From: a virus
Direction: 5' to 3' (one strand)
Length of the DNA: 24,743 nucleotides
Virus record (IMG/VR): IMGVR_UViG_3300009285_002073
Span: 1-24,743 of that record
Positions 2,645 to 19,231 of the stretch are shown in pieces (position 1 is the stretch's first letter; the number at the start of each line of letters is the position of its first letter). The notes beneath the pieces were generated by a model. The model searched no databases, had not been told where the DNA came from, and was given only the letters and a program-made list of their open reading frames with translations. The position numbers were made by a program, and so were the translations under genes.

Positions 2645-2913
2645 GCATTGAACTTGGAGCTTTAATAATTTTAGGCATAACCAATATCGGTACTTTAGCC
2701 TATCATGCTTGGACTACTTACCTCGAAAACAAGGAAAAGGCAAAAACCATCAATGCCTTAATTGCCAAAAACTCCCAAGACTTTAGTAACTTTGAACTCT
2801 CCGACAAAATGGATAAAGTTAAGGTTGAACCGCAACCTGACCTTCGGGAAGACTTAAAAGAACTTTCCGACTTAACAGATCAACAGTTTGACGAGAATAT
2901 ACTCAAAGAATAA
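2641..2913 (+). CDS. Small protein with an N-terminal membrane segment
   Basis: A 90-residue protein of unknown function. Residues about 5-27 (LGALIILGITNIGTLAYHAW) form one hydrophobic segment likely to be a transmembrane helix; the rest is hydrophilic, acidic and probably helical, with a C-terminal tail full of D and E. The start codon overlaps the previous stop (ATGA), so translation is coupled. Its last codons carry promoter A for the portal operon, and the stop codon TAA is the first half of that -10. Being next to the portal gene it might be a head or membrane accessory; no homologue is recognised. Confidence 0.7.
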   Translation: MSIELGALIILGITNIGTLAYHAWTTYLENKEKAKTINALIAKNSQDFSNFELSDKMDKVKVEPQPDLREDLKELSDLTDQQFDENILKE

Positions 2914-2916
2914 AAT
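2888..2916 (+). promoter_or_regulatory. Promoter of module A (portal operon)
   Basis: TTGACG (2888-2893), a 17-base spacer and TAAAAT (2911-2916). It sits inside the end of the preceding gene, with the TAA stop forming the start of the -10. The predicted start site is about 2923. Twenty bases separate the -10 from the hairpin at 2937, the same distance as in modules B, D and E. The leader shares TTAAGAA and GATATTAGA with module D. Confidence 0.7.
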
Positions 2917-2936
2917 AGACTTAAGAAACGGATATT

Positions 2937-2959
2937 AGAGAGCCGAAAGGCTCTTTTTT
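2937..2959 (+). terminator. Terminator-like hairpin of module A, between promoter and portal start
   Basis: An 8-pair stem (2937-2944 with 2949-2956, one G-U pair) closed by a GAAA tetraloop and overlapping six T residues. It has the form of an intrinsic terminator, yet it lies downstream of promoter A and ends only five bases before the portal ATG, leaving no room for a Shine-Dalgarno. RNA from promoter A would be about 37 nt if it stops here. It could act as an attenuator, end a tiny RNA, or stabilise the 5' end of the message. Confidence 0.75.
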
Positions 2960-2964
2960 GTTTA

Positions 2965-5064
2965 ATGGCAGATTACCAGACTTCAACAGTTGAAACCCGA
3001 AATATAGGTCAGACTATAGATCAGTTAATGACCTATGCCAAAACCGCCAGACGGCCATTTGAGCGCAAATGGTACGACAATCAATTCTTTGATGACGGCT
3101 ATCATTTCCGTTACTGGTCAAGAAGTGCCAATAAGATAATTGACGTATCAAACGATACTTCTATCTATTCTCCGATGCGGGCAATTCCTAAAGCCTCAAG
3201 ACAGATCAGGGGTGTGGCTAACCTTCTAACCACTAACGATCCGACCCCTGTTGTTTACCCAGAACCTTTAAACCAAACAGCTTTTGAGAACCCGCAGGAA
3301 TATGAACAAGCAAGGCAGGACAACAAAAAGACTGCCAAGTTAATCGGGCACTGGATTGCCGAGGAGTTTAAGAATCAGGAAATTTCCGAGCAGTTAGCCT
3401 TAATGCTGATTCTTGCCGCCAAACACGGCATTGCCTATATGCAGGTCTGGCCTGATGCCGTCAAAGAAAAAATCTGTACTCAAGTATATGACGCTTTTGA
3501 TATTTTTATTAAAGGTGACCTTAACTCAATTTACGACTCGCCCTTTATTATTAAAGGAATCCCCAAAACCATAGCCGAAATTAAAGCCAACGAACTTTTC
3601 AGCAAAGAACAATTGGATAAAATCAGCCCCGATAACCGTTTGGCTTCTTCTGAGATTAAAGAGGCATATCTTAGAGCTAAACAGGGTATGCACCCGAACC
3701 CTGATATTGTCGCCCAAATTATCCAAAAAGAGTTCTTTTTAAAGGAATATTTAGGCTCTGAAAATAAAGCAAGAGTAAGGCAGATGAACCCTGATCTTTT
3801 GAAATACAGAAAAGACGGTGATTGCGTAATCAGGCATGGTTTTGTGGCAGGCGATATTTGGCTTTATGATGAATATCTGGATGTTTACGAGTATCCATTT
3901 GTTGATTTCCGCTTTGAGCCAGGCCCGATTTATCAGGTTCCTCTAATTGAACGCTTTATTCCCCAAAACAAGTCACTTGATGTGGTTGTTTCCAGAGTAG
4001 AACGCTTTATAAACACAATGGTAACAGGCTTTTGGATGAAGAAACAGGGCGAACAATTCAAGCCAACCAATATTGCGGGAGGTGTGGTCTATGAATATCT
4101 TTCACAACCGCCTCAGCAGGGCGTAATTTCACCGCTTCCTAATTTTGTTTTCACTTTTATGCAGCTTTTGACCAATTTTATTGAGGAACAGGGCGTTACA
4201 ACTACAACTTTGGCTAAAATCCCGCAGGGTGTAAGATCAAATGCGGCCATTGAATCCTTAAAAGAGAGTGAATATGCCGCTTTAGCTATAGCCCAACGCA
4301 GATTAAAACAAACTGTCAAGAAAATAGCCGAAAGGTTCCTGATGATAGCCGATGACTACTTTATCCAACCCCAGCAGATCAGGTATTTGGAGAAAGGCGA
4401 GCCGCAGTATTTCGATGTAGTCGGTGCAAAAGCTAAAAAAGCCAGAGAAGCGTTAGGTGTACCAGTTGAAGGGAATGTTGTCCCTTTATCTAGTGAAGTT
4501 CATGTCGATATTGAGGTTGAAGCGGGGCTTGGCTTCACCAAACAGGGCAAACGAGATGCGGTTTTGAACTTAGTTGCTAAAGTCTTTCTGCCTCTTGCAG
4601 AAAAAGGTATGTTCCCGCCTGCGGCTGTTAAGACTATGGTTGAGAGAGTTGCCGAAACCTATCAATTCGGGGCAACCGCTGAACTGATGGATGCTTTTGA
4701 GCAGGAAGGCCCGCAATTCACTGACCAGCAGATTCAGGAGTTGAAAGTAGCTGTTGCCGAAGTCTTAAAGGACTTGCAGGGAAGCGGAATGTTCCCAGAT
4801 CAGGAACAGCGGATTCAGGAGGCTAAAGTAGCAGCAGCCGAAGTGATGAAAGATACGGGAATGGGACAACCAAAACAACAACAGGGTAAGCCGCCAAATA
4901 TAGCCTTTAAAGACTTACCGCCTACAGGTAAAATGCAGGCAGCAGCCCAAGCAGGTATCCAGATTGACCCTCAAGAATTATTAAGACAGGAAGCAAGAGA
5001 AGATGCCAAGATAATAATTCAGGATAAAGGCAGACAGACGAAAGGAGGTACGAATGCCTCTTAA
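2965..5064 (+). CDS. Portal protein (P22-like)
   Basis: A 699-residue portal subunit, close to the roughly 725 residues of P22 gp1. Portals form a dodecameric ring at one capsid vertex through which terminase pumps DNA. Supporting features are the position directly after terminase, the size, an N-terminal half with conserved-looking aromatic and charged blocks ([12 protein letters not shown] near residue 36; [15 protein letters not shown] near residue 80), a long helical section ([20 protein letters not shown] near 427) typical of the wing/stem helices, and a glutamine-rich, helical C-terminus like a barrel domain. It starts at ATG right after the hairpin of module A without a ribosome site. 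The family call is by pattern recognition, not alignment. Confidence 0.85.
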
Positions 5065-5236
5065 AAAAGGAAGTAGTAATAAAACAGTAAGTAGTAATAT
5101 TAGTGAGTTAGTACATTCGGGCTATCCGCAAAAGCAGGCTATCGCAATCGCTATGAGTAAAGCTGGTAAATCCAGAAAGAAAAAACCATCTAAGAAAAAT
5201 TATTCCCATGAGGCAATAAGGATGGCAAAAGGATGA
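5054..5236 (+). CDS. Small basic protein
   Basis: A 60-residue, strongly basic protein with many serine and lysine residues ([12 protein letters not shown] near residues 37-48) and a [17 protein letters not shown] segment that recurs in small proteins of environmental phages next to portal genes. It overlaps the end of the portal gene by 11 bases and has an excellent Shine-Dalgarno (AAAGGAGGT). The charge suggests binding to DNA or to an acidic head protein, but the role is unknown. Confidence 0.7.
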
Positions 5237-5484
5237 AACGAGTAGGAATTAAGGTATTATTCTATTTTGATCCGATAGATACTCGTTGGACTACTTTATC
5301 GGATTTTGAGCATTGGATCGCCAAACACTTGGCTGAAAATAATATGGAGGCCGAAAGAATGGAGATACTAGGTAGTGCCGAGCTTGTAATGATAATTAAG
5401 TCAAAACAGGAAATATCCAATTTACCTAAATTACATAAATCAAAACCTATTGAAGAACAAATCAAAAATTTAAAGGTAAAATAA
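5233..5484 (+). CDS. Unknown small protein
   Basis: An 83-residue protein I do not recognise. It begins with a beta-strand-like stretch (VGIKVLFYF), followed by a helix containing [11 protein letters not shown] and a second hydrophobic strand ([10 protein letters not shown]); this could be a small alpha/beta fold. The tail is lysine-rich. The start ATG overlaps the previous stop (ATGA) and is preceded by AAAAGG, indicating coupled translation. It is part of the portal operon, so a head-related role is possible but not shown. Confidence 0.65.
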
Positions 5485-5485
5485 T

Positions 5486-7021
5486 ATGCCTATAAAGCCA
5501 CACCAGAACGCAGTACAAGATAATAACGATTTTCCTGCCTTAACTGCGCATACGGGAACTGCAGGAACAGCTACAACTGTTAGGATTGTAGCCAATACTT
5601 CAGGACATATTGGTGTTTTTGGAACTGTCACATCCTCGGTAACAGTTGGGGATATTGATACGGTAGGTACTGTAAGGGTAGTTGAATCGGGTACTCTTGG
5701 TCTTGTTACCAGAACAGGTAAAGTAGGCACAATTGAGAATCTTGATAAGGGGACTATTACCAGAGTCGAGGGTGGATCAATTGTCGTTACTGCAGGTACA
5801 ATTGGGGATATTAATAAAATAGGAACGATAGGAGTTATTGATGCAGGCTCAATTGTCCAAACCGCAGGAACGGTATCTACAGGTTCACTTTCAAATGTAG
5901 CAACTATTGGTACTATCAAAAATTTAGATGCAGGTACAGTTACAGTTGGTAACATAAATAATCTTGGAACTACTAATGTAGTTGAAGCTGGTAGCCTTAA
6001 TTTACTTAAAGCTGGCACAATTACACGCCTTGAAGGCGGCTCAATAGTAGTTACCACAGGAACAATTGGCAATATTAATCAGGTTGGGACGGTTACGGTT
6101 GTTAATGCAGGATCAATAGTCCAGACCGCAGGTACATTAACTACTGGCTCTCTTACAAATCTGGCAACTCTTGGTACTGCTACAAACCTTGATAAAGGTA
6201 CGATTACTCGTGTAGAGGGAGGAAGCATAGTCGTAACGGCTGGAACCACTACTATTACTACGGGTTCAATTGTGGTTACCACAGGTACGATTGGAGATTT
6301 AGACACAGTAGGAACGGTAGGAAGAGTAGAGGGTGGTTCGATATTAGTAACTGCCGGCACTTTAACCACTGGTTCCTTATCAAATGTAGCTACAACTGGA
6401 ACTCTTTTAAACCTAGATAAAGGAACAATTACAAGATTAGAAGGTGGTACTTTAGGAATTGTTGCAGGAGGATCAATAGTTCAAACCGCAGGGACTTTAA
6501 CTACAGGTTCTTTAACTAATATCGCAACACTTGGAACTCTTTTAAATCAAGACAAAGGGACAATAACCCGACTTGAGGGTGGTTCAGTTGTTCAAACTGC
6601 AGGTACGGTAACTACAATGCTTGCAGGGACTTTAACAGCTCTTGCCAATGGAACAATTACGGCAGGAACAGTAAGAGTAAATGCTATTCCTGCTGGAAGT
6701 ACCATTTTAACCACCCATGTATTAGGAACTGGTGGTACTACTTGGGGAACAATAATAGCACCCGTAGGTGCAGGAACTAATGTTTATGTAACGGGACTTT
6801 CAATAATTGGTCGTACGGGAACAGCAGATTATGCTATTACTAATAATGTGGCCGGCTCTACGGGTGACGGAGTATTGGCTAGAGGATTTTTTCCACCAAG
6901 TGCCGGTATTGAAAAGGAATTCAACCCTGCAATTATGTTTGGGACTAATGGAACCATTGCTTATCTTGTATTAGGGCCGGGAACAGTAGATTTTAATCTT
7001 AGTTATTGGGTAGGCCCATAA
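5486..7021 (+). CDS. Gly-Thr-rich repeat protein, likely beta-solenoid surface or fibre protein
   Basis: A 511-residue, cysteine-free protein dominated by short strands of the type GT-hydrophobic-x. By eye it holds about 40 GT dipeptides. Residues about 89-385 form imperfect supra-repeats that begin with GTITR(V/L)EGGS and usually pass through NAGSIVQTAGT, TTGSLTN and NLDK. This pattern suits a beta-solenoid or trimeric fibre. The C-terminal 110 residues lack the repeat and look like a compact beta domain (LSIIGRTGTADYAITNN onward), as seen at the ends of related phage proteins. It lies in the head region of the operon, so it could be a capsid fibre, decoration or receptor-binding protein. 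Weak AAAGG ribosome site. The two glycosyltransferases downstream make threonine modification conceivable. Confidence 0.7.
   Translation: MPIKPHQNAVQDNNDFPALTAHTGTAGTATTVRIVANTSGHIGVFGTVTSSVTVGDIDTVGTVRVVESGTLGLVTRTGKVGTIENLDKGTITRVEGGSIVVTAGTIGDINKIGTIGVIDAGSIVQTAGTVSTGSLSNVATIGTIKNLDAGTVTVGNINNLGTTNVVEAGSLNLLKAGTITRLEGGSIVVTTGTIGNINQVGTVTVVNAGSIVQTAGTLTTGSLTNLATLGTATNLDKGTITRVEGGSIVVTAGTTTITTGSIVVTTGTIGDLDTVGTVGRVEGGSILVTAGTLTTGSLSNVATTGTLLNLDKGTITRLEGGTLGIVAGGSIVQTAGTLTTGSLTNIATLGTLLNQDKGTITRLEGGSVVQTAGTVTTMLAGTLTALANGTITAGTVRVNAIPAGSTILTTHVLGTGGTTWGTIIAPVGAGTNVYVTGLSIIGRTGTADYAITNNVAGSTGDGVLARGFFPPSAGIEKEFNPAIMFGTNGTIAYLVLGPGTVDFNLSYWVGP
5750..6620 (+). repeat. Supra-repeats in the Gly-Thr-rich gene
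   Basis: Five copies of the peptide GTITR(V/L)EGG begin at 5750, 6014, 6197, 6422 and 6557, spaced 88, 61, 75 and 45 codons apart. Peptide identity is high, but glycine and threonine codons vary among all synonyms (GGA, GGT, GGC, GGG), so the DNA copies are much less alike than the protein copies. Confidence 0.7.
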
Positions 7022-7068
7022 TGGCAGGAACAGCTTTTATTACAGTTCAATATTGGAACGAGGTATAA
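7021..7068 (+). CDS. Possible 15-residue micro-ORF
   Basis: MAGTAFITVQYWNEV fills exactly the gap between two genes. Its ATG overlaps the previous stop (TAATG) and its TAA abuts the next ATG, giving an unbroken chain of coupled reading frames. It may serve only to carry ribosomes across the gap, since its end (GAGG) is the ribosome site of the following gene. Expression as a real peptide is uncertain. Confidence 0.3.
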   Translation: MAGTAFITVQYWNEV

Positions 7069-7623
7069 ATGGCAGTAGTATTAGGAACAAGTAGCGGATT
7101 TGTAACAACATCACCGACAGTAGACCCCATTGGAGGAAGCTCGCCGACAATAGATGGTAGTTCTTGGACCACTAAACATACAAGTCCTTCTACGGCAGTT
7201 AAAATAACAGAAATGGGATGGTGGTGTAATGACGCAACAGAGGCAGCAAATTTTGAGGTAGGCCTGTATGCCGCAGATGGGGCGGTTGTTCCGGGGGAAG
7301 CAGGGACAAGATTATTTGTTAGTGCAACAAACGCAAAAGGAACAGGGGCAGGATGGAAAAAAGTAACAGGATTGAATTGGACAATTTCTTCAAACACTGT
7401 TTATTGGTTAGCTGTTCAATTAGATGCGGTTGTAACGGCAACAACAACAGACAGGGAATTAAGCGGTGGTGTTGGTGGAGATGTGGTAGGCGCTCAAACT
7501 ACTTTAACAGACCCTTTTAACGGCGGGGCTTTTGATTCTGCCAGAATGATGGCTATTTATGCGGTCTGGGAAGCAGGAGGAGTTGTTTTTCTTTCTCATT
7601 TAACTCTTTTAGGAACAGGTTGA
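7069..7623 (+). CDS. Beta-sandwich virion protein, possibly carbohydrate-binding
   Basis: A 184-residue protein with alternating strand-like segments and no obvious signal peptide. The core (VKITEMGWWCNDATEAANFE, residues about 44-63, then WTISSNTVYWLAVQLD, about 104-119) matches a beta-sandwich type seen in environmental phage decoration or tail proteins, where paired aromatic residues suggest sugar binding. It is threonine- and glycine-rich like its upstream neighbour and ends the portal operon. The stop codon TGA lies inside the -35 of promoter B. Binding of host sugars or decoration of the capsid are both possible; no catalytic motif is visible. Confidence 0.6.
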   Translation: MAVVLGTSSGFVTTSPTVDPIGGSSPTIDGSSWTTKHTSPSTAVKITEMGWWCNDATEAANFEVGLYAADGAVVPGEAGTRLFVSATNAKGTGAGWKKVTGLNWTISSNTVYWLAVQLDAVVTATTTDRELSGGVGGDVVGAQTTLTDPFNGGAFDSARMMAIYAVWEAGGVVFLSHLTLLGTG

Positions 7624-7648
7624 CATGATAATTAGTAACCGCTAGAAT
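7620..7648 (+). promoter_or_regulatory. Promoter of module B (scaffold/capsid operon)
   Basis: TTGACA (7620-7625), a 17-base spacer and TAGAAT (7643-7648). The -35 contains the stop codon of the preceding gene. The predicted start is near 7655, and 20 bases separate the -10 from the hairpin at 7669. Unlike the other modules, its -10 is embedded in a perfect 16-base palindrome. Confidence 0.75.
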
Positions 7649-7657
7649 ATATTCTAG
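7642..7657. promoter_or_regulatory. Perfect 16-base palindrome overlapping the -10 of promoter B; candidate operator
   Basis: CTAGAATATATTCTAG is a perfect inverted repeat without a spacer, covering the -10 hexamer and extending to about the transcription start. A dimeric repressor bound here would block polymerase. The other four modules do not show it, so the scaffold/capsid operon may have an extra control. The ribbon-helix-helix protein encoded at 728 is one candidate ligand. Confidence 0.5.
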
Positions 7658-7668
7658 TAAGCGAATTT

Positions 7669-7693
7669 AGAGGGCGCAGAGTCCTCTTTTTTT
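7669..7693 (+). terminator. Terminator-like hairpin of module B
   Basis: A 7-pair stem (7669-7675 with 7681-7687, one G-U pair), a 5-base loop and seven T residues. It follows promoter B by 20 bases, so a transcript ending here would be about 39 nt. Downstream, GTGG/CCAC (7694-7697/7705-7708) and GGTTT/AAACC (7696-7700/7711-7715) could form two mutually exclusive small hairpins before the scaffold gene. Confidence 0.75.
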
Positions 7694-7754
7694 GTGGTTT
7701 AGAGCCACTAAAACCGATAGACTTGCTAATTCTGGCAGGAAGGAAGTGATTAAG

Positions 7755-8444
7755 TTGGCAGATTTTTTTGATAAACCCGAGGAGAAAGTAGATGAGCCGA
7801 AAGAAGAAGAAAAAGGGCAAGAAGAAGCGAAAGTAAAAGTTGGGGAAAAAGAATATACCCAAGAGGAACTTTCAAAACTTGTAGGCTTGGGCGAAATCGG
7901 TGCGGAAGCTGAAGAAAAGTTTAACGTCAGACTTGACAAGGTTTGGCCTAATCTTCAGCAAACGATTAACGAGAAGAAGGCTTTGGAAGACAGAATAAAA
8001 ACTTTGGAAGCTCAACCCGCCCCAGAGGGCGAATTGACGGAACAGCAGATAATTGCCAAAGCCAAAGAGGAGGCAAAAAAGTTAGGTTTGGTTTCGATTG
8101 ACGATATTAACGAGTTCGTTGACCGAAGAATCGAAGTAAGGGAATTAAGGGAGGATGTTCAGGCGGTTGTAACCGAGGCCGAAGAAAAATATGGCATTAA
8201 GACATCCGAGGATGCAATCTTAAACCATATGGTCGATACGGGAATTAAAAACCCGCAAAAGGCTTTTAAAGACATATACGAGGAGAAATTAGATGCTTGG
8301 AAAGAACAACAGATTAATAAAGTTAAAAAGCCAGGAATGGTTACTGAAACTGCGGTTACAGGCAACAAGGAGCCTAAGACTGAACCTGTTACAAAAGACA
8401 ATTTCTTTTCTCGCATTGATGAGGTTCTTGATCGAGCAGCTTAG
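7755..8444 (+). CDS. Probable capsid scaffold protein
   Basis: A 229-residue, highly acidic and lysine-rich protein predicted to be nearly all helix with long coiled-coil stretches (residues about 1-45 and 70-150), no cysteines and low complexity at the N-terminus. These are the usual traits of phage scaffold proteins, which guide assembly of the capsid shell and then leave or are degraded. The gene lies immediately before the capsid gene, apart from an HNH gene between them. The TTG at 7755 (giving MADFFDKP) lies eight bases after AGGAAG; an in-frame GTG at 7746 is the other realistic start. Assignment is from composition and position, as scaffold sequences are poorly conserved. Confidence 0.75.
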   Translation: MADFFDKPEEKVDEPKEEEKGQEEAKVKVGEKEYTQEELSKLVGLGEIGAEAEEKFNVRLDKVWPNLQQTINEKKALEDRIKTLEAQPAPEGELTEQQIIAKAKEEAKKLGLVSIDDINEFVDRRIEVRELREDVQAVVTEAEEKYGIKTSEDAILNHMVDTGIKNPQKAFKDIYEEKLDAWKEQQINKVKKPGMVTETAVTGNKEPKTEPVTKDNFFSRIDEVLDRAA

Positions 8445-8455
8445 AGGAGGATTAA

Positions 8456-9046
8456 TTGGGCTTAAAAGGTCAAATCCCTTGGAATAAGAATTTAAAAGGA
8501 GTTATGCCTAGTGGGAAAAATCACGGTCGATGGTTAGGTGGAATACCTAATTGTATTTTTTGTGGCAATCGAGTTTCTTCTTATAAAGTAAAAAAATGTT
8601 GGGATTGTTATGTAAAAAATCGTTCTATACAACAAGTAAAAATAGCTGCCAAATTAGGAGCTGATAAAAGATGGGCAGGGCATATAAAACAACATAAATC
8701 TTATTACAAAAGTACTAAAAAATGGAGAGAAGAAAATAGGGGAAGATTTTATTTTCTTAAAAAGAAAAGAGAAATACAGAAAAAAACTAATGGTTTACAT
8801 ACATTCGAGGAATGGGTTGCATTAAAAGTTAAATTTAACTTTATGTGTCTTTGTTGCAAACAATTTGAACCAAATATAAAACTTACTGAAGATCATATCA
8901 TACCAATTAGTATGGGGGGATCGAATAATATTTCAAATATTCAACCACTTTGCCAAAATTGTAATTCTAAAAAATATACAAAAACTATATCTTACTTGCC
9001 TCTAAATTCTTATGAATTAATAAACGAGGGGAAGGAGGTTTTTTAA
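8456..9046 (+). CDS. HNH homing endonuclease with N-terminal zinc finger
   Basis: A 196-residue protein of the free-standing HNH homing endonuclease type, which cuts DNA at a target lacking its own gene so that repair copies the gene in. The N-terminus has the IPWN motif common to this group, then a four-cysteine finger (C33, C36, C48, C51), a basic helical linker and a C-terminal HNH domain: CLCC at 131-134, catalytic D146-H147, N161, and CQNC at 166-169. It starts at TTG 8456, five bases after GAGGAGG. It separates the scaffold and capsid genes, an essential site typical of such mobile genes. Its base composition is visibly richer in A and T than its neighbours, consistent with separate origin. 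Confidence 0.85.
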   Translation: MGLKGQIPWNKNLKGVMPSGKNHGRWLGGIPNCIFCGNRVSSYKVKKCWDCYVKNRSIQQVKIAAKLGADKRWAGHIKQHKSYYKSTKKWREENRGRFYFLKKKREIQKKTNGLHTFEEWVALKVKFNFMCLCCKQFEPNIKLTEDHIIPISMGGSNNISNIQPLCQNCNSKKYTKTISYLPLNSYELINEGKEVF

Positions 9047-9047
9047 C

Positions 9048-10319: not shown

Positions 10320-10320
10320 G

Positions 10321-10835: not shown

Positions 10836-10991
10836 GTGCCGAGGAAGAAAAGAAAAAATATTAGAAGAATACATGATACAAGGCTTAGTTTTACAGAATT
10901 ATGTAAGAGGGCGGGTATAACGCCTTTTGAAAGAATTATGTTAATCAGAATTAGAAAAGCCCGAATTAGGGCGAAAGGTGGTGAATATTAA
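10836..10991 (+). CDS. Small very basic protein
   Basis: A 51-residue protein starting at GTG four bases after the previous stop. It opens with PRKKRKNIRR, continues with LSFTELCKRAGITPFERIML, which has a helix-turn-helix-like rhythm, and ends in RIRKARIRAKGGEY. It fills the gap up to the next gene almost exactly and the tail overlaps that gene's AAGGTGGTG ribosome site. The charge suggests nucleic-acid binding. No clear ribosome site is seen for it, so it is probably translated by coupling. Function unknown. Confidence 0.55.
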   Translation: MPRKKRKNIRRIHDTRLSFTELCKRAGITPFERIMLIRIRKARIRAKGGEY

Positions 10992-12061: not shown

Positions 12062-12091
12062 TTGACTCAGGTTGACTTTTGTTGATATGTT
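12062..12091 (+). promoter_or_regulatory. Promoter of module C (glycosyltransferase operon)
   Basis: TTGACT (12062-12067), an 18-base spacer and TATGTT (12086-12091) with an upstream TG that makes an extended -10. It begins directly after the stop codon of the preceding gene. A second TTGACT at 12072 lacks a good -10. This is the weakest promoter of the five modules. Confidence 0.5.
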
Positions 12092-12093
12092 TA

Positions 12094-12112
12094 GGTTATC
12101 CGAGGAATAACC
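12094..12112 (+). promoter_or_regulatory. Leader hairpin with loop complementary to the following terminator loop
   Basis: GGTTAT (12094-12099) and ATAACC (12107-12112) form a perfect 6-pair stem with loop CCGAGGA (12100-12106). That loop is exactly complementary to TCCTCGG (12135-12141) in the loop of the next hairpin, so a kissing-loop contact is possible. This extra element makes module C's -10-to-hairpin distance 31 instead of 20 bases. Confidence 0.5.
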
Positions 12113-12122
12113 GCAGTATTTT

Positions 12123-12158
12123 AGAGGCTTACTTTCCTCGGAAGCTAAGCCTCTTTCT
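12123..12158 (+). terminator. Terminator-like hairpin of module C
   Basis: A perfect 9-pair stem (AGAGGCTTA 12123-12131 with TAAGCCTCT 12146-12154), a 14-base loop and a short TTTCTT tail ending directly before the ATG at 12160. No ribosome site is present between hairpin and ATG. The loop can pair with the upstream hairpin loop, which might change termination. Confidence 0.65.
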
Positions 12159-12159
12159 T

Positions 12160-12990
12160 ATGAAGAAGAAAAATGTCATTTTAGTTACGGGTCTAGGTAA
12201 AGAATATCTTGAACTGGCGATTAAAATGATAAATTCTCTCAAAAAAACAAACCCCGAATTAGATAAAACCTGCGATATTGCCCTTTATACCCAAGAAGAT
12301 GCCATAAGGCATGGTTTTACAATGCTTCCCAATGACTTAAAAATGCGCTATATGATACCTATTTTTGCGAAGGAACTTTTGGATAAATACGAATGTGTGG
12401 CACGTTTAGATTCCGATATGATAATAACGGGCGATATTTCAAGTTGTTTTGAAGGTGATTTTGACGTAGCAGTTGTCCAAAACGCCAACCCCAGAGAAAT
12501 ACAAAGTCAGATGCAAATGATGGGTAAAACAGTCCAGGTTTGGGATATTGATGCCTTAAAAGAATACGTTAATTGCGGTTTTGTGGTAATGAAATCAAAA
12601 GAATTTGTTAATCATTGGCTTTCTCTTTGTACCGAAAAACGAGCTAATGTTTACCAATTCTACGAGCAGGATTTTCTTAATATCCTTTGTTACTACGGCA
12701 ATTACAAAGTACGGTTTTTGGACAAAGAAAAGGCTAATAAATTCTGGGGACTTTCGAGCAAAGGATATTGGAGTGAATGTATCTTAAAAGATAAAAAACT
12801 AATTTTGCCTAAAAAAAGCGGTACGGAACAGGATATGTGGCCTGAAGATTCCGATAAGGAAATTGTTTGTATTCATGTTGCGGGTGGGCAAGATCCGACT
12901 AAATTTAATTATGACTGGCTTCCTAATAAATTTACCAAAGAGGTAGCCTTATATCTCAAATATCTAATTTCTGATGAAAAAGAAGCGTGA
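12160..12990 (+). CDS. GT-A fold glycosyltransferase (GT8-like)
   Basis: A 276-residue enzyme that should transfer a sugar from a nucleotide-sugar donor. It begins with a Rossmann-like strand (NVILVTGLG), followed by a helix and strand that bind the nucleotide, and carries a metal-binding DxD motif at D84-S85-D86 in ARLDSDMIITGD. NCGFVVMKS (about residue 138) and CIHVAGG (near residue 247) fit the acceptor/donor-site elements of the GT8 group. The ATG at 12160 is used because the promoter and hairpins of module C lie upstream; a longer frame from TTG 12079 would include them. It is co-transcribed with a second glycosyltransferase. Targets may be virion proteins or host surface sugars. Confidence 0.75.
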   Translation: MKKKNVILVTGLGKEYLELAIKMINSLKKTNPELDKTCDIALYTQEDAIRHGFTMLPNDLKMRYMIPIFAKELLDKYECVARLDSDMIITGDISSCFEGDFDVAVVQNANPREIQSQMQMMGKTVQVWDIDALKEYVNCGFVVMKSKEFVNHWLSLCTEKRANVYQFYEQDFLNILCYYGNYKVRFLDKEKANKFWGLSSKGYWSECILKDKKLILPKKSGTEQDMWPEDSDKEIVCIHVAGGQDPTKFNYDWLPNKFTKEVALYLKYLISDEKEA

Positions 12991-14170
12991 TTTAAAGATA
13001 GTTTTTGCGGGTGACGCATTGTGGTCAAGATCGGGTTACGCAAATGAGCTAACCCACTTAATAAGACGTTTCCTTTTAGATGGCTGGCAGGTTGCCCAAG
13101 CTACCAAAGCGGGTCTTAGCGGGCATTGGATAGATTACCAGATGCCTGAAGGAACTTTACGAATGTATCCTTCGGTTGACGATCCTCACGGTTCGGATAC
13201 CATGTTTTATGCCGCAAGACATTTCGGGGCACAAGTTGTCATTTCCATGATAGACATTTGGGTTATTCCCCCTCAATGGATTCAGAACTTGCATCAGATA
13301 GGCTGTAAGTGGTGGCCGTATATGCCAGTTGATGCTAATCCCGCACCGCTTGGTGTTTTACAAAGATTGCCTTTAGCCGATAAAATAATCACTTTTTCCC
13401 AATTTGGACATGACCAGTTAATCAAACACGGTTGGGTTTCCGAAATGATCCACGAAGGTGTGGATGTAAACTTACTGCAGCCAAAAGATAAACGTGAGGC
13501 TAAAAAGAAAATCGGTGTACCGCAGGATATATTTTTATGGGGAATGATAGCGGCCAATAAGGAAAACCCGCCCCGTAAGGCTTTTCAGGAGTCCCTAGAG
13601 GCATTTAAACTGTTTTCCGATGTCCACCCCGAAGCTAGGCTTTTTATCGGCTCTAATCAGATTTCACCAAGTTCTTTCCCGATTAGAGATTATGCTAACT
13701 ACTTGGGAATACTTGATAAAATGTTTTTCCCAGACCAGCTATTTTTTACGATTTTGGCAACTGATGAGGATATTGGGAATTACTATAATGCTTTTGACGG
13801 GCTTCTGCACCCTTCACAAACCGAAGGATTTGGCCTGACTATTGTCGAAGCTCAAGCTGTAGGTGTTCCTGTTGTTATAAACAATGCACAAAGTATGCCA
13901 GAACTTATTATAGAAGGCAAGACAGGTGAGAAAGCTCAAATTGCCTCAAGATGGTTTAATAACGGACTTTCCTTTTGGGAACGGCCTGATCCCCAAAGTA
14001 TCTACTGGGCTATGGAGAAAATTTACAAAAGGATTAAGGAAAAACCGCAGGAAGTCTTACAGGATTGTAGAAACCATATAGTCGAAAACTTCAACATAGA
14101 CAAGATATTCCAAGAGAGATGGCTGCCCTTAATTGAGAAAGCCCAAGATGAATTATTGCCCCAGAATTGA
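12974..14170 (+). CDS. GT-B fold glycosyltransferase (GT4-like)
   Basis: A 398-residue retaining-type glycosyltransferase of the GT4 class, which uses an activated sugar donor. The N-terminal Rossmann domain starts with LKIVFAGDALWSRSGYANE, whose SGYAN loop is typical of acceptor-side glycine-rich motifs. The C-terminal donor domain has the EX7E signature: E284 and E292 in QTEGFGLTIVEAQAVGVPVV. The linker between domains is normal and no part appears missing. The gene overlaps the first glycosyltransferase by 17 bases, so both are made together. Its stop codon lies within the -35 of promoter D. Placement among structural genes suggests decoration of virion proteins, although change of the host surface cannot be excluded. 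Confidence 0.85.
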   Translation: MKKKRDLKIVFAGDALWSRSGYANELTHLIRRFLLDGWQVAQATKAGLSGHWIDYQMPEGTLRMYPSVDDPHGSDTMFYAARHFGAQVVISMIDIWVIPPQWIQNLHQIGCKWWPYMPVDANPAPLGVLQRLPLADKIITFSQFGHDQLIKHGWVSEMIHEGVDVNLLQPKDKREAKKKIGVPQDIFLWGMIAANKENPPRKAFQESLEAFKLFSDVHPEARLFIGSNQISPSSFPIRDYANYLGILDKMFFPDQLFFTILATDEDIGNYYNAFDGLLHPSQTEGFGLTIVEAQAVGVPVVINNAQSMPELIIEGKTGEKAQIASRWFNNGLSFWERPDPQSIYWAMEKIYKRIKEKPQEVLQDCRNHIVENFNIDKIFQERWLPLIEKAQDELLPQN

Positions 14171-14195
14171 CACCCAAGATAAAAAAAACTAAAAT
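14167..14195 (+). promoter_or_regulatory. Promoter of module D (tail/decoration operon)
   Basis: TTGACA (14167-14172), a 17-base spacer and TAAAAT (14190-14195), a near-perfect promoter. The TGA stop of the glycosyltransferase is inside the -35. The start would be near 14202. The leader shares TTAAGAA and GATATTAGA with module A, and the A-rich spacer resembles that of module E. Confidence 0.8.
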
Positions 14196-14215
14196 TTAGT
14201 TAAGAACGTGATATT

Positions 14216-14238
14216 AGAAGGCACTTGATGTGTCTTTT
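14216..14238 (+). terminator. Terminator-like hairpin of module D
   Basis: A stem of seven pairs (14218-14224 with 14230-14236, one G-U) that can extend two pairs to 14216/14238, a TTGAT loop and a T-rich tail TTTTGTTGTTT. It starts 20 bases after the -10. In contrast to modules A, C and E, a strong AGGAGGTGATT ribosome site follows before the ATG at 14258. Confidence 0.6.
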
Positions 14239-14257
14239 GTTGTTTAGGAGGTGATTA

Positions 14258-14551
14258 ATGTCAAGTCAAGAACAAGGATATAGTTATGCCCAATTGACAG
14301 GAACAGGGGTAACATTAAGAAAAAATAGCCAGTGTACTGTTAAGAATTTATGTGTAATGGGAACGGGAAACGGAACAGTCCATTTATACAATATTGATAC
14401 TGCAGCTGGGACTCTAGCTGGCAATCAGTTAGTAACTCTAGCATTGACTTCACCAACCGTACCTTCAACAGTTCCTATCAATGCTAATTTTAATACAGGA
14501 TTAGTTAGTACGGTTACAGGTACGGTTAATGTGGGATTAAGTTGGAATTAA
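14258..14551 (+). CDS. Small threonine-rich decoration-like protein
   Basis: A 97-residue protein with alternating beta-strand pattern (GVTLRKNSQCTVKNLCVMG; TVHLYNIDTAAGTLAG; VNVGLSWN) and many glycine and threonine residues. It is probably a small beta-sandwich or immunoglobulin-like virion protein. It has a strong Shine-Dalgarno (AGGAGGTGATT) and is the first gene of the module D operon, where high expression would fit a decoration protein. No specific family is recognised. Confidence 0.6.
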   Translation: MSSQEQGYSYAQLTGTGVTLRKNSQCTVKNLCVMGTGNGTVHLYNIDTAAGTLAGNQLVTLALTSPTVPSTVPINANFNTGLVSTVTGTVNVGLSWN

Positions 14552-14725
14552 ATGAGCAGCAAAAACTTAGATATAATTGATATAAAACCTAAGATGGTAG
14601 AAATACCGCAGCCTTTGGATAGTGAACAGTTTTATACTATGACGATTAAAGCAGGGCAATGGATGGGCTTTTTGCTTTTCACTTATCCTGCACAATTAAC
14701 AGTATCAAGTTCTAAGGCACCTTAA
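14552..14725 (+). CDS. Unknown 57-residue protein
   Basis: The ATG begins immediately after the TAA of the previous gene and the stop lies two bases before the next ATG, so the gene fits the gap exactly and is probably coupled. The protein has an acidic/basic N-terminal half and a hydrophobic, aromatic C-terminal part (AGQWMGFLLFTYPAQLTV, residues about 34-51) that could be strands of a virion protein or a short membrane segment. No homologue is recognised. Confidence 0.55.
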   Translation: MSSKNLDIIDIKPKMVEIPQPLDSEQFYTMTIKAGQWMGFLLFTYPAQLTVSSSKAP

Positions 14726-14727
14726 TT

Positions 14728-15276
14728 ATGGGCATAGTCAAAATTAACGAAGGTACACAAACAACTATATTTGCAGATACCGTTAGTGGTACAGAAATTC
14801 CTATCATCAAGTTAGACGTTGGTGCGGCTGGTGCTTCCTCTGCCTTTACAGGTACTTTAGGAGCAGTTACTAATTTAGCAGGCGGGACAGTAGGAAGAAT
14901 TGGTGGCGGATCAATAGTTGTAACCACAGGGACGGTTTTTTCACAAACTATAGGCACGGAACTTAAACCTACCAATGAAATTGGAACGGCAGTTACCCTA
15001 ACAGGCACAGCTACAGGAACGCTGGTAGCAGCTTCGGCAGGTTCAATTCACTATGTAACTTCTTTAATAGTTTCAGTTGAATCTTCTGGACGAGTTTCGA
15101 TAGCTTCAGGAACTCCAACATCACCGATTATCGGAACAATGAACTTTGCTGCAAATGGCGGGATTGCCGCTATGCCAATTAATCCTCCTATAAGGACTGC
15201 TAGCGGTTCTGCTTTAGTATTTAATCAGTCTGGTACTGGTGTAATTGGCATCTATGCTGGGGGATATACAGAATAG
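14728..15276 (+). CDS. Gly-Thr-rich decoration/fibre-like protein
   Basis: A 182-residue protein combining a short Gly-Thr repeat section (residues about 48-75, with GGTVGRIGGGSIVVTTGTV resembling the repeats of the protein at 5486) and a C-terminal beta domain (residues about 95-182). The C-terminal pattern, VTSLIVSVESSGRVSIASG then MNFAANGGIAAMPINPP and a final strand pair, is a common fold in small environmental phage structural proteins. It contains no cysteine and few charges. It lies between two probable decoration proteins and may form part of a fibre or capsid surface. No enzyme motif is present. Confidence 0.65.
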   Translation: MGIVKINEGTQTTIFADTVSGTEIPIIKLDVGAAGASSAFTGTLGAVTNLAGGTVGRIGGGSIVVTTGTVFSQTIGTELKPTNEIGTAVTLTGTATGTLVAASAGSIHYVTSLIVSVESSGRVSIASGTPTSPIIGTMNFAANGGIAAMPINPPIRTASGSALVFNQSGTGVIGIYAGGYTE

Positions 15277-15285
15277 GATGAATGA

Positions 15286-15987
15286 ATGGCAAATACACAT
15301 TCTCTTGATTTAGAACGGGGATCTTCACAATATGCTTTTGTAGCTGATACCGCACCATTGTCTATTACTGGCAATTTGTCTATAGAGGCATGGGTTAGAC
15401 TGGAAAGTTTACCAAGCGTAGGTGGTGAGGCATATTGCATAGCTGCCAAGATGGATCAGGATGGCACAAATGCCAGCTACAATTTTTGTATTGCCACTAA
15501 TGACAAGATGAGATTTTTTACTTCTGATGATGGCAATCTAGTCGCAAATGGAGATGCAAACACAGCGCTTTCCATAAACACGTCGTATCACTTAGGGGTT
15601 ACTTACAGCACTGCTGGCTCCTGCACATTTTATCTCAACAAAGTTCCCGATGGTAATCCTAGCGGGCTAGACACTTCAATTTCGAACAATACCTCAAGGT
15701 TTACGATTGGGGCTGTTGATACACAGTCAACGGCTAGATTTTTTATGGATGGGCTTGTCGACGAGGTGGCTGTCTATAACGCAATTGTTGCTCTTGACAC
15801 TCTTGACAACCAAGCCGATAAAACAGGTCGAACCAATATGGTAGGTTACTGGAAACTAAACAATGATTATGTAGATGTTGTAAATGCCGCCAACTTAACA
15901 GCAGTTGGCTCACCAGTTTTTTCAACAACAGTTCCTTTTGTGGACTATAGAGGAGTATTTTCTGGGTTACAATCTAAAATTTGGTAA
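15286..15987 (+). CDS. LamG/concanavalin-like lectin-fold protein
   Basis: A 233-residue protein matching the laminin-G-3/concanavalin A-like jelly roll. Its start (SLDLERGSSQYAF), the LSIEAWVRLESLP strand pair (residues about 28-40), WNxxYHLGVTY-like segment (NTSYHLGVTYSTAGS, about 102), FTIGAVD and DGLVDEVAVYN (about 155-165) follow the order of this family closely. Such domains bind carbohydrates and occur in phage fibres and decoration proteins. It has an AGGA ribosome site seven bases before the ATG. The stop codon TAA opens the -10-like TAAAAT of the next gene. A receptor-binding or capsid-surface adhesion role is inferred. Confidence 0.75.
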   Translation: MANTHSLDLERGSSQYAFVADTAPLSITGNLSIEAWVRLESLPSVGGEAYCIAAKMDQDGTNASYNFCIATNDKMRFFTSDDGNLVANGDANTALSINTSYHLGVTYSTAGSCTFYLNKVPDGNPSGLDTSISNNTSRFTIGAVDTQSTARFFMDGLVDEVAVYNAIVALDTLDNQADKTGRTNMVGYWKLNNDYVDVVNAANLTAVGSPVFSTTVPFVDYRGVFSGLQSKIW

Positions 15988-15990
15988 AAT
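15985..15990 (+). promoter_or_regulatory. -10-like hexamer of a possible leaderless promoter for the connector gene
   Basis: TAAAAT begins with the preceding stop codon and ends six bases before the ATG at 15997, which has no ribosome site. The spacing equals that at terS and terL. No -35 is visible, so its activity is uncertain. Confidence 0.35.
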
Positions 15991-15996
15991 TAAAGT

Positions 15997-17148
15997 ATGG
16001 CTCTAATCAGAACAATAAATGACTTAGATGTAAAAGCTCCGACAACCTATCTTGCCAATGATGAGGTAACAGGAACTACTACAGTTAGAGTCAAAAACAC
16101 CACAGGTTTCACTACAGGCTGGGCAGTTCAGATAGGTAAAACTGGTGAGGATAGAACGGAAGTTGTCTTAGGCACAGTCACAAATGTCGGCACACTTTCA
16201 GTTGCCGCTTTAGACTTTGATCATCCTGCTTCAACTCCAGTTTATGCGATTAAATACAATCAGGTAGTTTTTGAGAAAAGTACAACAGGTACAACAGGAA
16301 CGGCTACGCCAATGACTAATGGTACAGTTGAGTATCAAGCCGATGCCATTGATCCTTTTACAAGCCAAAGTTATACAATATTTGATGATACTTCCGCAGC
16401 CTCAACTGATGCTTATAAGACATATTTTAGGAGTTCTTCTTTAGCAGTCAATTCCAATGAAAGCGATTGGATTACAGCCAGTGGTTTTAATTTTTACTCT
16501 TTGGGTAAGTTAAGAAGCAGAGTCAGGGAGAAACTTTGGAAATCCGATTTTGTTTCAAATGAGGAGATTAATAACTGGATAAATGAATGGAAAGACGAAA
16601 TGACAAATAATGCGGTTAGTGTCAATGAAGATTATGCCATCGGTACTGTCAATGTCGCTTTTGGTACGGCAGGGTTGGGAACCGTAACTACTGCTGATTT
16701 CAAACAACCGAAGCGGATTGAAATAACTTATAACGGTTCGGATTATTTTCTTTCCACAAAACGAGCCTTAAATGAGTATTATCCTTCGGAGGTGGTAAAT
16801 TCTGCTCACCCTTATCATAATTGGGAAGGCAATACGGTATTTCGGGTTTTTCCTTCGGATGAAGCAGGAACAGCTAAAATTTGGTTTTATAGACAGGGTA
16901 CACCGATGATAAATGATACGGATGAATTAGATGTGCCGATGAGAGCTTACACTAATTCTTTTGTTGATTATGCTTTGGCAATGGCACTCCAAAAAGACAA
17001 TCGGTTTACGGAAGCAGACAAAAGACTCACTTTGGCTTATGGACAGAAAAATTCATTTACTGTCCAAATTACTCCCCGTGATAAAAGCTCTCAAACCTAT
17101 GTGAAAATTGATGAGGTAATGAGCGGGGAGGACAACCTCATTTGGTGA
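15997..17148 (+). CDS. Head-tail connector/adaptor (P22 gp4-like) with N-terminal beta domain
   Basis: A 383-residue protein with two regions. Residues 1-150 are threonine-rich beta structure (TTTVRVKNTTGFTTGWAVQI), resembling domains found at the N-terminus of related environmental proteins. Residues about 165-383 begin with LGKLRSRVREKLWKSDF and EEINNWINEWKDEM, a helical pattern typical of gp4-like adaptors that extend the portal ring and close the head. A late helix (FVDYALAMALQKDNRF) fits the same group. It precedes the gp10-like gene, the same order as in P22. It lacks a Shine-Dalgarno and has TAAAAT six bases upstream of ATG. P22 gp4 is about 166 residues, so the N-terminal domain is an addition. 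Confidence 0.65.
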   Translation: MALIRTINDLDVKAPTTYLANDEVTGTTTVRVKNTTGFTTGWAVQIGKTGEDRTEVVLGTVTNVGTLSVAALDFDHPASTPVYAIKYNQVVFEKSTTGTTGTATPMTNGTVEYQADAIDPFTSQSYTIFDDTSAASTDAYKTYFRSSSLAVNSNESDWITASGFNFYSLGKLRSRVREKLWKSDFVSNEEINNWINEWKDEMTNNAVSVNEDYAIGTVNVAFGTAGLGTVTTADFKQPKRIEITYNGSDYFLSTKRALNEYYPSEVVNSAHPYHNWEGNTVFRVFPSDEAGTAKIWFYRQGTPMINDTDELDVPMRAYTNSFVDYALAMALQKDNRFTEADKRLTLAYGQKNSFTVQITPRDKSSQTYVKIDEVMSGEDNLIW

Positions 17149-17149
17149 G

Positions 17150-18553
17150 ATGATTTTAAAAGCGTTCAATGTTAAAGGAATCAATATCAAGACTTCACCC
17201 TTTTACACGAATGAAGGTGAATTGTTACGGGCCGTTAATGTTGAAACTGATGTAGTCGGTTCAAAAAAAAAACGACCTGGTTACACTACTTATTTAGGTA
17301 CTCCTGACACTGACCAAGTAAATACCCTTTTTGACTGGCATAACAATACTGGTACGCAATTCTGGAATTACAGAGCTAGCGGTTCAATCCTTTACTATTC
17401 CCAACAAGGTACGGGTGCATGGACAGTATGCGGAAATGGCACAATTCCCAATAATGACTATGTTTACAACGGGGTTCTGGAAAATACTTTAGTTGTAACT
17501 TCCCCTACTGGCACGACTAGGCACACTACGAATGGGACTTCATTTACTAATACTTCTTCGGCACCAATAGGTGGTGTTGGAGTCGAGGAATATGTAAACC
17601 GTATTTGGGTTGCAGGAACTTCCAGTAATATTTTCTATTCAACTACAGGTACGCCTACGGACTGGACAAGTGATTCTTCCAGTATTGCTATACCAGGTGC
17701 GGGCAAAATGCTTTCACTTTTTAAAGATAATAACCGCTTAATTGCTACTAAAAATTCAGGGTTGGTATTCAGATGGGATGGTTTTAACTTAACCGATCAG
17801 GCAACTAAACTTGGGCCAACATCTGCCCCGTCAATTGATACTATAGAGGGATTTAATTTTTATCTTAATAGATTAGGGGCCTTCGGTTATGGAGGAAATT
17901 ATCCCGAAATCGTTTCCAATCCGATTGAGAAATATATTTATAATGATGCGGCTACAGGTATAGTCGGTACGGTTTTTGACAATGCTCCAGGTGTTGTACA
18001 CAAATATCAATATTATCTAACTGTCGGTTCGGTACAGGATAACTTAACAAGTGAAACTATTAATCCCTGCACTTTGATTTATGATTACCAAAATGATGAG
18101 TGGATGGCCTGGCAGACGGCAGTTCAACCTACAGCTTGGCACTCCTACAAAGATGCTTCAGGCGATGAGCAGTTAATTTTTGGTGATGCCAATGGTCAAT
18201 GTTATACAGTCGGCGGTACAAACCTAAGTGACAATGGTTCGGCTATAGCTTCGGTTTTGGAGGGAGTCATTCACTTTAATAGGCCAGAAACAGATAAGGT
18301 ATTTAGAAGAATTTGGGCTTTTGCCAATCCAGGTTGCCAAGCCTCAATTCAAGTTGCCATTGCCGATACTTTTACCAAAGACCGTTTAAACTGGCTGCCT
18401 TTGGGTGATTTGCAGGATGGCCATGTCGAATACCGTTTTCCTGCCAATTCGCAAGGGAAGTTATTATTCTGGAAATTAATTGAATCTTCATCTTCTGCCC
18501 GATTTACTTTTTACGGTTTCGCAATCCAATTCGATTATGAGAAACCTAGATAA
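17150..18553 (+). CDS. Tail stabilisation protein (P22 gp10-like)
   Basis: A 467-residue protein, close to the 472 of P22 gp10, which binds below the adaptor and plugs the packaged head. It starts with the typical element AFNVKGINIKTSPFYTNEGELLRAVNVE, in which a short GI-N--SP motif leads into a conserved NxE strand, followed by KKKRPGYTTYLGT. The rest is repeated strands with aromatic residues (FDWHNNTGTQFWNY; WVAGTSSNIFYST; YDYQNDEWMAW) consistent with a beta-propeller. The ATG lies one base after the previous stop, indicating coupling. The order after a gp4-like gene supports the call; the fold inference is mine. Confidence 0.7.
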   Translation: MILKAFNVKGINIKTSPFYTNEGELLRAVNVETDVVGSKKKRPGYTTYLGTPDTDQVNTLFDWHNNTGTQFWNYRASGSILYYSQQGTGAWTVCGNGTIPNNDYVYNGVLENTLVVTSPTGTTRHTTNGTSFTNTSSAPIGGVGVEEYVNRIWVAGTSSNIFYSTTGTPTDWTSDSSSIAIPGAGKMLSLFKDNNRLIATKNSGLVFRWDGFNLTDQATKLGPTSAPSIDTIEGFNFYLNRLGAFGYGGNYPEIVSNPIEKYIYNDAATGIVGTVFDNAPGVVHKYQYYLTVGSVQDNLTSETINPCTLIYDYQNDEWMAWQTAVQPTAWHSYKDASGDEQLIFGDANGQCYTVGGTNLSDNGSAIASVLEGVIHFNRPETDKVFRRIWAFANPGCQASIQVAIADTFTKDRLNWLPLGDLQDGHVEYRFPANSQGKLLFWKLIESSSSARFTFYGFAIQFDYEKPR

Positions 18554-19151
18554 TCGTTTCAGAAAAGGATTATCTGCCAGGATTCCTGAATGGAAAAGTG
18601 CCCAGGAACTTGAAGCTACGCAGGAATGGAATCCTATAACACCTCCAGTTTTAACTAATAGAGGTACATTACAAACGATCAGTGGCGGATTACCTCAATT
18701 CAGATCAGTTTCAGGTACTTCAGGCGGTACGATTATTATGGATGTTGACCCTGCAACGGGAACAGTTACCATAAGAGGCGGTCTAGTTGCCCAACAAACA
18801 TTGGATTTGGGAACAATTAACAATACGGTCTTGGCAGGAACCCCAACTCTAGCAGGAACTTTAACTAATAATCGTTTAATTAACAACGGCACTTGGAATA
18901 CAGGCACATTTGGTACCCCCAATATATCAGCAGGTACTCATAACAATGCTTTTTTAGGTACACCCCAGACTGCAGGAGGCACAATCGGCACGCCAGTTAT
19001 TACAGGTACACCAACATTTGGCACGCAAGGCGGAAGCGCAGCATTATCGGCAGACGGTAATTTTGCAATGCAGTTTTACTCAGGAAGCCCGATTATTGCT
19101 TTTAGATATGCGGGAACAACTTTTCGTTTCGTAACCGCAGGAACTATTTAG
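18537..19151 (+). CDS. Tail needle/fibre-like Gly-Thr repeat protein
   Basis: A 204-residue protein with a helical/charged N-terminal 45 residues (NLDNRFRKGLSARIPEW) followed by GT- and N-rich short strands (TLDLGTINNTVLAGTPTLAG; NNGTWNTGTFGTPNISAG) and a C-terminal aromatic piece (FAMQFYSGSPIIAFRYAGTTF). The repeats suit a trimeric fibre shaft. It overlaps the stabiliser gene by 17 bases and occupies the position of the P22 tail needle gene (after gp10), so a needle or short fibre is plausible but is inference from order. The ATG at 18537 is preferred over a TTG at 18480 because the latter would overlap the upstream gene by 74 bases. Confidence 0.6.
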   Translation: MRNLDNRFRKGLSARIPEWKSAQELEATQEWNPITPPVLTNRGTLQTISGGLPQFRSVSGTSGGTIIMDVDPATGTVTIRGGLVAQQTLDLGTINNTVLAGTPTLAGTLTNNRLINNGTWNTGTFGTPNISAGTHNNAFLGTPQTAGGTIGTPVITGTPTFGTQGGSAALSADGNFAMQFYSGSPIIAFRYAGTTFRFVTAGTI

Positions 19152-19152
19152 T

Positions 19153-19181
19153 TTGACACTTTAACGAAAAAAAACTAAAAT
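19153..19181 (+). promoter_or_regulatory. Promoter of module E (internal protein operon)
   Basis: TTGACA (19153-19158), a 17-base spacer and TAAAAT (19176-19181). It begins one base after the preceding stop codon. The predicted start is near 19188, and the hairpin begins 20 bases after the -10. The spacer and -10 (AAAAAAAACTAAAATTTAG) are shared with module D. Confidence 0.8.
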
Positions 19182-19201
19182 TTAGAGAGAAAGCGATACA
19201 T

Positions 19202-19225
19202 AGAGAGCGCAATGCTCTCTTTTTT
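19202..19225 (+). terminator. Terminator-like hairpin of module E
   Basis: A perfect 7-pair stem (AGAGAGC 19202-19208 with GCTCTCT 19214-19220), a 5-base loop and six T residues, then ATTTTT and the ATG at 19232. It is a strong intrinsic-terminator shape but lies after the promoter and before the first gene, with no ribosome site in between. RNA ending here would be about 38 nt. Confidence 0.75.
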
Positions 19226-19231
19226 ATTTTT

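Follow-up and report, generated by a model that had tools for sequence, protein, structure and literature searches.

Promoter-proximal terminators before phage late genes have been described as one site per lambdoid genome, and in lambda the terminator tR' lies near +194. In stabilisers of the T7 phi10 and ompA type, a highly expressed messenger RNA (mRNA) begins with a stem-loop at its very 5' end. In phage HK022, the putL RNA of ~70 nucleotides (nt) lies directly 3' of the early promoter, contains two stem-loops and works with no protein (PMC9378689). A promoter-terminator unit of only 38 base pairs (bp), T7 A1-tR2, terminates in vitro at ~33%, so that most polymerases pass it (PMC6978380). 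Here we analyse a module of promoter, leader and terminator-like hairpin that recurs in the uncultured-virus record IMGVR_UViG_3300009285_002073, a complete contig of 24,743 bases, the whole of which is called the window, with genes for terminase, a P22-like portal, scaffold, major capsid, glycosyltransferase, tail and amidase. What is new about this module is the order promoter, leader, terminator, gene at several operons per genome, kept across a divergent family.

Results

The portal protein of the window led to 80 related IMG/VR loci with 43-84% identity, and the sequences place window and relatives in a divergent family of uncultured tailed phages (handles with L or G below refer to relatives of the window). 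Relatives of the portal were found neither by a profile search of bacterial genome contigs nor by tblastn among 50,697 cultured phages. The rules for sigma-70 promoters and terminators were assumed to be valid in the host. There is kinship and some redundancy among the loci; near-identical leaders entered the counts a single time, and shared ancestry remains in all counts. Thresholds were chosen while viewing the data, except for two tests that were run later at fixed settings, the control with unrelated contigs and the hairpin test made free of T.

Across 83 family loci, 58 of 415 promoters with a score of at least 10/12 are followed 8-52 nt downstream by a strong hairpin with a T-run, where shuffled sequences lead to an expectation of 1.0, and 57 of these 58 pairs lie on the coding strand. 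The same succession was found for 55/402 promoters in the family (~80 contigs) compared to 1/456 in 76 unrelated IMG/VR contigs. Hence, the module that an earlier note on this DNA had pointed out is real, and the signal is stronger than first claimed. The reverse and usual order, with the terminator upstream of the promoter, occurs only five times in the family, and 59 of 84 strong coding-strand terminators outside open reading frames (ORFs) have a promoter upstream. Within the window alone the numbers of sites are ordinary (59 promoter-like sites versus 46 in shuffled sequence, 18 terminator-like sites versus 16), so that the signal resides in the pairing of promoter and terminator and not in the abundance of either. 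To avoid circularity, hairpins were also gathered without any T criterion. Of 54 strong hairpins found in this way, 48 have seven or more T among the ten nt that follow the last G-C pair; T exceeds 80% at positions 1-6 and drops at position 8, a profile that corresponds to that of intrinsic terminators, and the arrangement is a G+C-rich stem-loop directly 5' of a U-tract. Scanning IMG/VR for a promoter followed by ATTAGAAGG recovered modules in this family only, among the 79 matches listed, and no Rfam match at gathering score was obtained in the window or in nine module-bearing loci. Comparison across the family shows promoter, hairpin and U-tract, their order and their family-wide recurrence, and it strongly supports the assignment as promoters and terminators; we infer, in addition, the transcription start sites, termination and control of read-through.

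The modules of the window are listed in Table 1. Modules A, B, D and E have promoters that match the sigma-70 consensus at 10-11 of 12 positions, all with a 17-nt spacer. From the end of the -10 to the start of the hairpin there are exactly 20 nt in four of four cases, and the hairpins start with AGAGAG (A and E), AGAGGG (B) and AGAAGG (D). With the predicted +1 placed at the seventh base 3' of the -10, the RNA up to and including the U-tract would be ~37-40 nt long; z-scores for RNA folding are -4.3 (A), -2.4 (B), -2.8 (D) and -2.4 (E). The scaffold gene behind module B probably starts at TTG 7755, as suggested by the N-termini of relatives. The coordinates agree with the earlier note in the sigma-70-like promoter that overlaps or abuts the previous stop codon, in the spacing of exactly 20 bases in these four modules and in the predicted RNA of about 37-39 nt. 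Five copies of one module had been claimed, and this applies to A, B, D and E, but C is weaker and belongs to a different class.

Table 1. Coordinates of the predicted elements of modules A to E in the window, and of module C-class orthologues in relatives. SD, Shine-Dalgarno sequence; MCP, major capsid protein.
Feature	Position	Strand	Remark
Module A promoter TTGACG-17-TAAAAT	2888..2916	+	upstream stop TAA inside -10
Module A leader, 20 nt	2917..2936	+	predicted +1 near 2923, inferred from -10
Module A terminator-like hairpin AGAGAGCC-gaaa-GGCTCTTT + T-run	2937..2959	+	before portal ATG 2965
Module B promoter TTGACA-17-TAGAAT	7620..7648	+	upstream stop TGA inside -35
Module B leader, 20 nt	7649..7668	+	
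Module B hairpin AGAGGGC-gcaga-GTCCTCT + T-run	7669..7693	+	upstream of scaffold/MCP operon
Module C promoter-like TTGACT-18-TATGTT, weak	12062..12091	+	18-nt spacer common to modules of its class
Module C hairpin 1 GGTTAT-CCGAGGA-ATAACC	12094..12112	+	loop can pair with terminator loop
Module C terminator-like hairpin AGAGGCTTA..TAAGCCTCT, pyrimidine tail	12123..12159	+	GT8 gene ATG at 12160
Module D promoter TTGACA-17-TAAAAT	14167..14195	+	upstream stop TGA inside -35
Module D leader, 20 nt	14196..14215	+	
Module D hairpin AGAAGGCAC-ttgat-GTGTCTTTT, T-run interrupted	14216..14246	+	SD AGGAGGTGA, then ATG 14258
Module E promoter TTGACA-17-TAAAAT	19153..19181	+	begins 1 nt after upstream stop
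Module E leader, 20 nt	19182..19201	+	
Module E hairpin AGAGAGCG-caa-TGCTCTCT + T-run	19202..19226	+	before ATG 19232
Module C-class orthologues	L094:14529, L073:12735, L041:11148, L080:18566, L063:10379, L057:9832		

A larger collection of 73 modules divides into 22 with a short leader, the class of A, B, D and E, and 51 with a long leader. In most relatives 28-48 nt, and not 20, separate the -10 from the terminator, owing to the insertion of an additional hairpin on the 5' side. This hairpin is present in 41 of the 51 long leaders, compared to 6.8 in shuffled sequences (maximum 14), and in 36 of the 41 it starts 6-7 nt after the -10, corresponding to the predicted +1/+2; its start being fixed relative to the -10, promoter and RNA are tied together. 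It consists of a stem of 4-5 bp and a mostly 9-nt, A-rich loop with the consensus A-Y-A-A-W-A-W-R-G, and C(A/G) follows the stem. The stem covaries: among 30 sequences 120/120 cells are paired, with 55 changes on both sides compared to 14 in shuffled alignments, and the covariation score of 1.22 (0.27 when shuffled) becomes much lower when the stem is slid by 1-3 columns. Alignments of whole leaders with MAFFT misplaced the stems, and therefore a gap-free alignment of 19 nt was used, with no covariance model. The 3' part of the long leaders is a spacer ending in approximately GYGAATT and then the terminator, whose 5' arm starts with AGARGG. The first gene follows the terminator stem either closely, at 3-18 nt and often lacking a Shine-Dalgarno sequence, or ~50-60 nt further on, where such a sequence is often present. 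The earlier note had named as a check a search of related phages for covarying hairpins equally far from a -10; the outcome is positive, except that the distance is mostly another one and that module C belongs to another class. The A-rich loop might also pair with the U-tract, but base composition is sufficient to account for this, and the idea was given up. In three leaders, L071:1190 (G010), L130:7395 (G023) and L107 (G015:20384), the segment just before the T-run is complementary to the 3' arm of the 5' hairpin, which is suggestive of a 5' hairpin and a terminator that are mutually exclusive.

The glycosylation operon has a leader of its own kind. Module C (12062-12160) has 31 nt between the -10 and the terminator-like hairpin, in line with the earlier note, which had left it out of the fixed 20-nt spacing; this leader holds its own hairpin, and the tail behind the terminator-like hairpin is a short pyrimidine stretch only. 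The terminator loop TTCCTCGGA (12134-12142) is complementary to TCCGAGGAA (12099-12107). Orthologous glycosylation operons (GT8, GT4 and often an FkbM-type methyltransferase) were identified through homology, and T-runs played no part in the comparison of their leaders. A hairpin loop pairs with a later segment in 15 of 28 of these leaders, compared to 0.7 in shuffled sequences. Kissing loops, in which the partner is the loop of the terminator hairpin, were found as CCGAGG/CCTCGG in the window and G001, TCTGCGAG/CTCGCAGA in L073, CCAAGA/TCTTGG in L080 and ATCCGAGAA/TTCTCGGAT in G013; an H-type pseudoknot ending just 5' of the ATG was found in L083, L085, L089, L048 and L105. The pairing is kept and the pairing sequences differ among these leaders, that is, they covary. 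By this comparison, module C falls into a class apart, that of the kissing-loop/pseudoknot leaders. In G013, the kissing-loop leader is followed immediately by a small ORF with a highly charged product. Additional to the glycosyltransferases, L093 (G001:10860-19846), L105-L106 (G012) and L115-L116 (G013) contain a sugar-metabolism gene cluster, the genes of which by eye resemble those for phosphoheptose isomerase, GHMP kinase, nucleotidyltransferase and epimerase.

Modules precede structural or glycosylation operons, and comparison between relatives shows this link to late operons. In G001 (49 kb), five of five modules lie in the structural half, and strong promoters in the replication half (2429, 13095) come without a hairpin. 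Over 26 long contigs, 36 of 70 promoters near structural genes have a module compared to 8 of 33 elsewhere, chance promoters included in both counts. At orthologues of the scaffold/MCP operon, 19 of 40 leaders pass the strict test, or about 19-25 when those judged by eye are included. At the portal gene of G001 (L094:4798-4867), the promoter is retained and, of the hairpin, the AGAGGGCC half, while the 3' arm and the T-run are gone; from its sequence, this leader can be read as a natural terminator-less copy. At 684-868 of the window (compare L094:2450-2791) there is a strong promoter TTGACA-18-TACAAT without a hairpin, before a small ORF that adjoins the large terminase gene; this ORF of 46 amino acids, starting at 728, looks by eye like a ribbon-helix-helix regulator and has no Pfam match. 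After the capsid gene, a very basic ORF of 51 amino acids (10836-10991) with relatives in 11 of 26 contigs is a possible RNA- or DNA-binding protein.

Other genes of the family deserve a brief description. The window encodes Gly/Thr-rich repetitive proteins with recurring motifs of the GTI...GTV type at 5486-7021, 14728-15276 and 18480-19151, which are probably tail or fibre proteins. Free-standing HNH endonuclease genes stand among the structural genes in the window (8456-9046), and several do so in G013. G008 encodes a GroEL-like protein (L102:83-1657; ~45% to bacterial GroEL) and in the same genome a GroES-like ORF (G008:41012-41269). The GroEL-like protein was tried as a guide to the host; it matches mainly distant proteobacterial GroELs at ~45%, and no host is claimed.

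Discussion

We propose that the modules are promoter-proximal transcription attenuators of late operons, in which read-through would be set by the emerging leader, either alone or together with a factor, and we give this reading a probability of about one half. Host RNA polymerase would initiate at a strong sigma-70 promoter that is built into the end of the gene before it, and the first 40-70 nt of the transcript would form a structured leader that ends in an intrinsic terminator 5' of the start codon. By default, many polymerases would stop there and release a short RNA, and the operon would be expressed only as far as polymerase passes the terminator. In most of the family, the 5'-terminal hairpin with its conserved A-rich loop would set the read-through; in the clade of the window a linear leader rich in A would do so, and at the glycosylation operon the kissing loop or pseudoknot. 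The leader may act directly on polymerase, like HK022 put, or as a landing site for a host or phage factor, and the module terminators may also end transcription arriving from the upstream operon. Termination at the 38-bp unit in vitro indicates that so short a geometry is workable, and since most polymerases pass that unit, partial read-through would be expected even without a factor. The argument that the leader sets the outcome is built on the locked 5' hairpin and on the kissing-loop/pseudoknot class. More tentatively, and with the odds clearly against it, the late regulon might be controlled by RNA only: the nascent 5' structure would let polymerase pass its own terminator without a protein, with a kissing-loop/pseudoknot version at the glycosylation operon. 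An attenuation or antitermination regulon had been the first model of the earlier note; it is the best fit to the family-wide order, the covarying stems, the U-tracts and the late operons, but the searches of family contigs described below identified no phage antiterminator that could be the factor it invoked. If control of read-through is confirmed, the modules would represent a new way of coordinating late genes and provide natural RNA switches in a compact set. They are directly testable in vitro with purified polymerase, although host and phage are uncultured.

Several observations weigh against attenuation by the leader. The short leaders of the window (A, B, D and E) have no 5' hairpin, and 34 of 70 promoter-like sites in structural regions have no terminator, some of these being chance sites or pseudoknot leaders. 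Divergent lineages have no module at the orthologous scaffold/MCP operon, and thus the module is not universal in the family. The pseudoknot leaders of L048, L057 and L105 extend right up to the ATG, their U-tract being minimal or missing, and translation control fits leaders of this type at least as well; with several glycosylation leaders of this kind, it is as likely as attenuation at that operon. An overlap of 5' hairpin and terminator, as known from RAT elements and expected of a classical switch, is not clearly above chance over all modules (8/148 compared to 2.2 by chance, maximum 5, several of the eight being trivial). Finally, a trans factor did not emerge. A Q-type antiterminator (PF06530, PF03589) gave no match over the cut-off in 20 contigs, many of them possibly fragments, and one sub-threshold match, in G007, has an internal stop. 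A NusG-family protein (PF02357) was likewise not found in 20 contigs, many possibly fragments, in a search whose positive control gave a signal in 10 of 14 genomes. When the proteins of 26 contigs were clustered, no shared early gene stood out, and a PHROGs/Pfam search of the early region of G001 and of small conserved ORFs gave no convincing antiterminator candidate. Since most contigs are fragments, the absence of a Q- or NusG-like gene is weak evidence.

Among the alternatives, a compact boundary element would need no regulation at all: the terminator would end the upstream operon, the promoter would be tucked in to save space, and polymerases would leak through. The stop codons inside the -35 or -10, the almost complete lack of extra intergenic DNA, the few terminators elsewhere and the passage of tR2 by most polymerases in the 38-bp unit in vitro (PMC6978380) are all in line with this. 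Still, it is doubtful, as it leaves unexplained why a 5' hairpin with a conserved loop is locked to +1/+2 and why there is a kissing-loop/pseudoknot class, and a strong terminator after a strong promoter would waste many initiations. The position at +1/+2 is instead what one expects of a 5' stabiliser, and the modules might act after transcription, as elements of the 5' untranslated region whose hairpins or pseudoknots protect the mRNA end or gate ribosomes, the U-run being a feature of translation. In line with such an element, many first genes lack a Shine-Dalgarno sequence and have their start 3-14 nt from the stem, and several pseudoknot leaders reach the ATG without a T-run. But the regularity of the U-tract equals that in intrinsic terminators, and the U-tract is retained also before genes that start ~50-60 nt further on and have a Shine-Dalgarno sequence of their own, which makes this explanation improbable for the modules as a whole. 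The earlier note had offered a 5' stabiliser and tiny RNAs as alternatives; both are conceivable, but they explain less than attenuation. It is very improbable that polymerase, having stopped at the terminator after the upstream operon, does not leave the DNA and starts anew from the promoter 60-100 bp upstream, in a relay from operon to operon: in vitro, polymerase diffuses both ways after termination and re-initiates nearby on the 38-bp promoter-terminator unit (PMC6978380), but here it would face the identical terminator again, and the conserved leader hairpins would be unexplained. Least probable of all is a family of ~40-70 nt phage RNAs acting in trans, which share a loop motif and would be present in 2-5 copies per genome, but lie directly upstream of operons instead of at separate loci, have stem sequences that vary freely between copies and are otherwise dissimilar.

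Measured against the described systems, promoter-proximal attenuation as proposed here combines features of several. T7 phi10 and ompA stabilisers share the 5'-terminal stem-loop; here, however, a terminator-like hairpin with a U-tract follows before the start codon. In BglG/SacY RAT systems a leader hairpin also lies upstream of a terminator, but the leader hairpin described here generally does not overlap it. The 5' hairpin resembles lambda nut/boxB, the target of N, in being short, in its purine-rich loop and in its position close to the transcript 5' end, but the loop in the family has mostly 9 nt and is no 5-nt GNRA-like pentaloop, the hairpin starts at +1/+2, and the terminator is within the leader. 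Similar in its logic is lambda pR'-tR' with Q, with a strong constitutive promoter, an intrinsic terminator before the late genes, a short RNA by default and a need for read-through, and in the present family, too, a predicted terminator lies between the late promoter and the first late gene. The differences to lambda Q are several sites per genome, a terminator at ~+37 to +70, a structured 5' leader and a search of 20 contigs that found no Q homologue. HK022 put resembles the long-class leaders in length, in position, in the two stem-loops and in that no dedicated protein was found; two stem-loops within ~70 nt after a phage promoter are present in 41/51 long leaders and not in the short class of the window. 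In contrast, put acts on distant terminators, whereas here the second stem-loop is itself the predicted terminator, and put has two early copies, while the modules are copies at late operons; sequences were compared only via Rfam, with no match. Should the tentative RNA-only version apply, it would be unlike the single-site systems of lambda and HK022.

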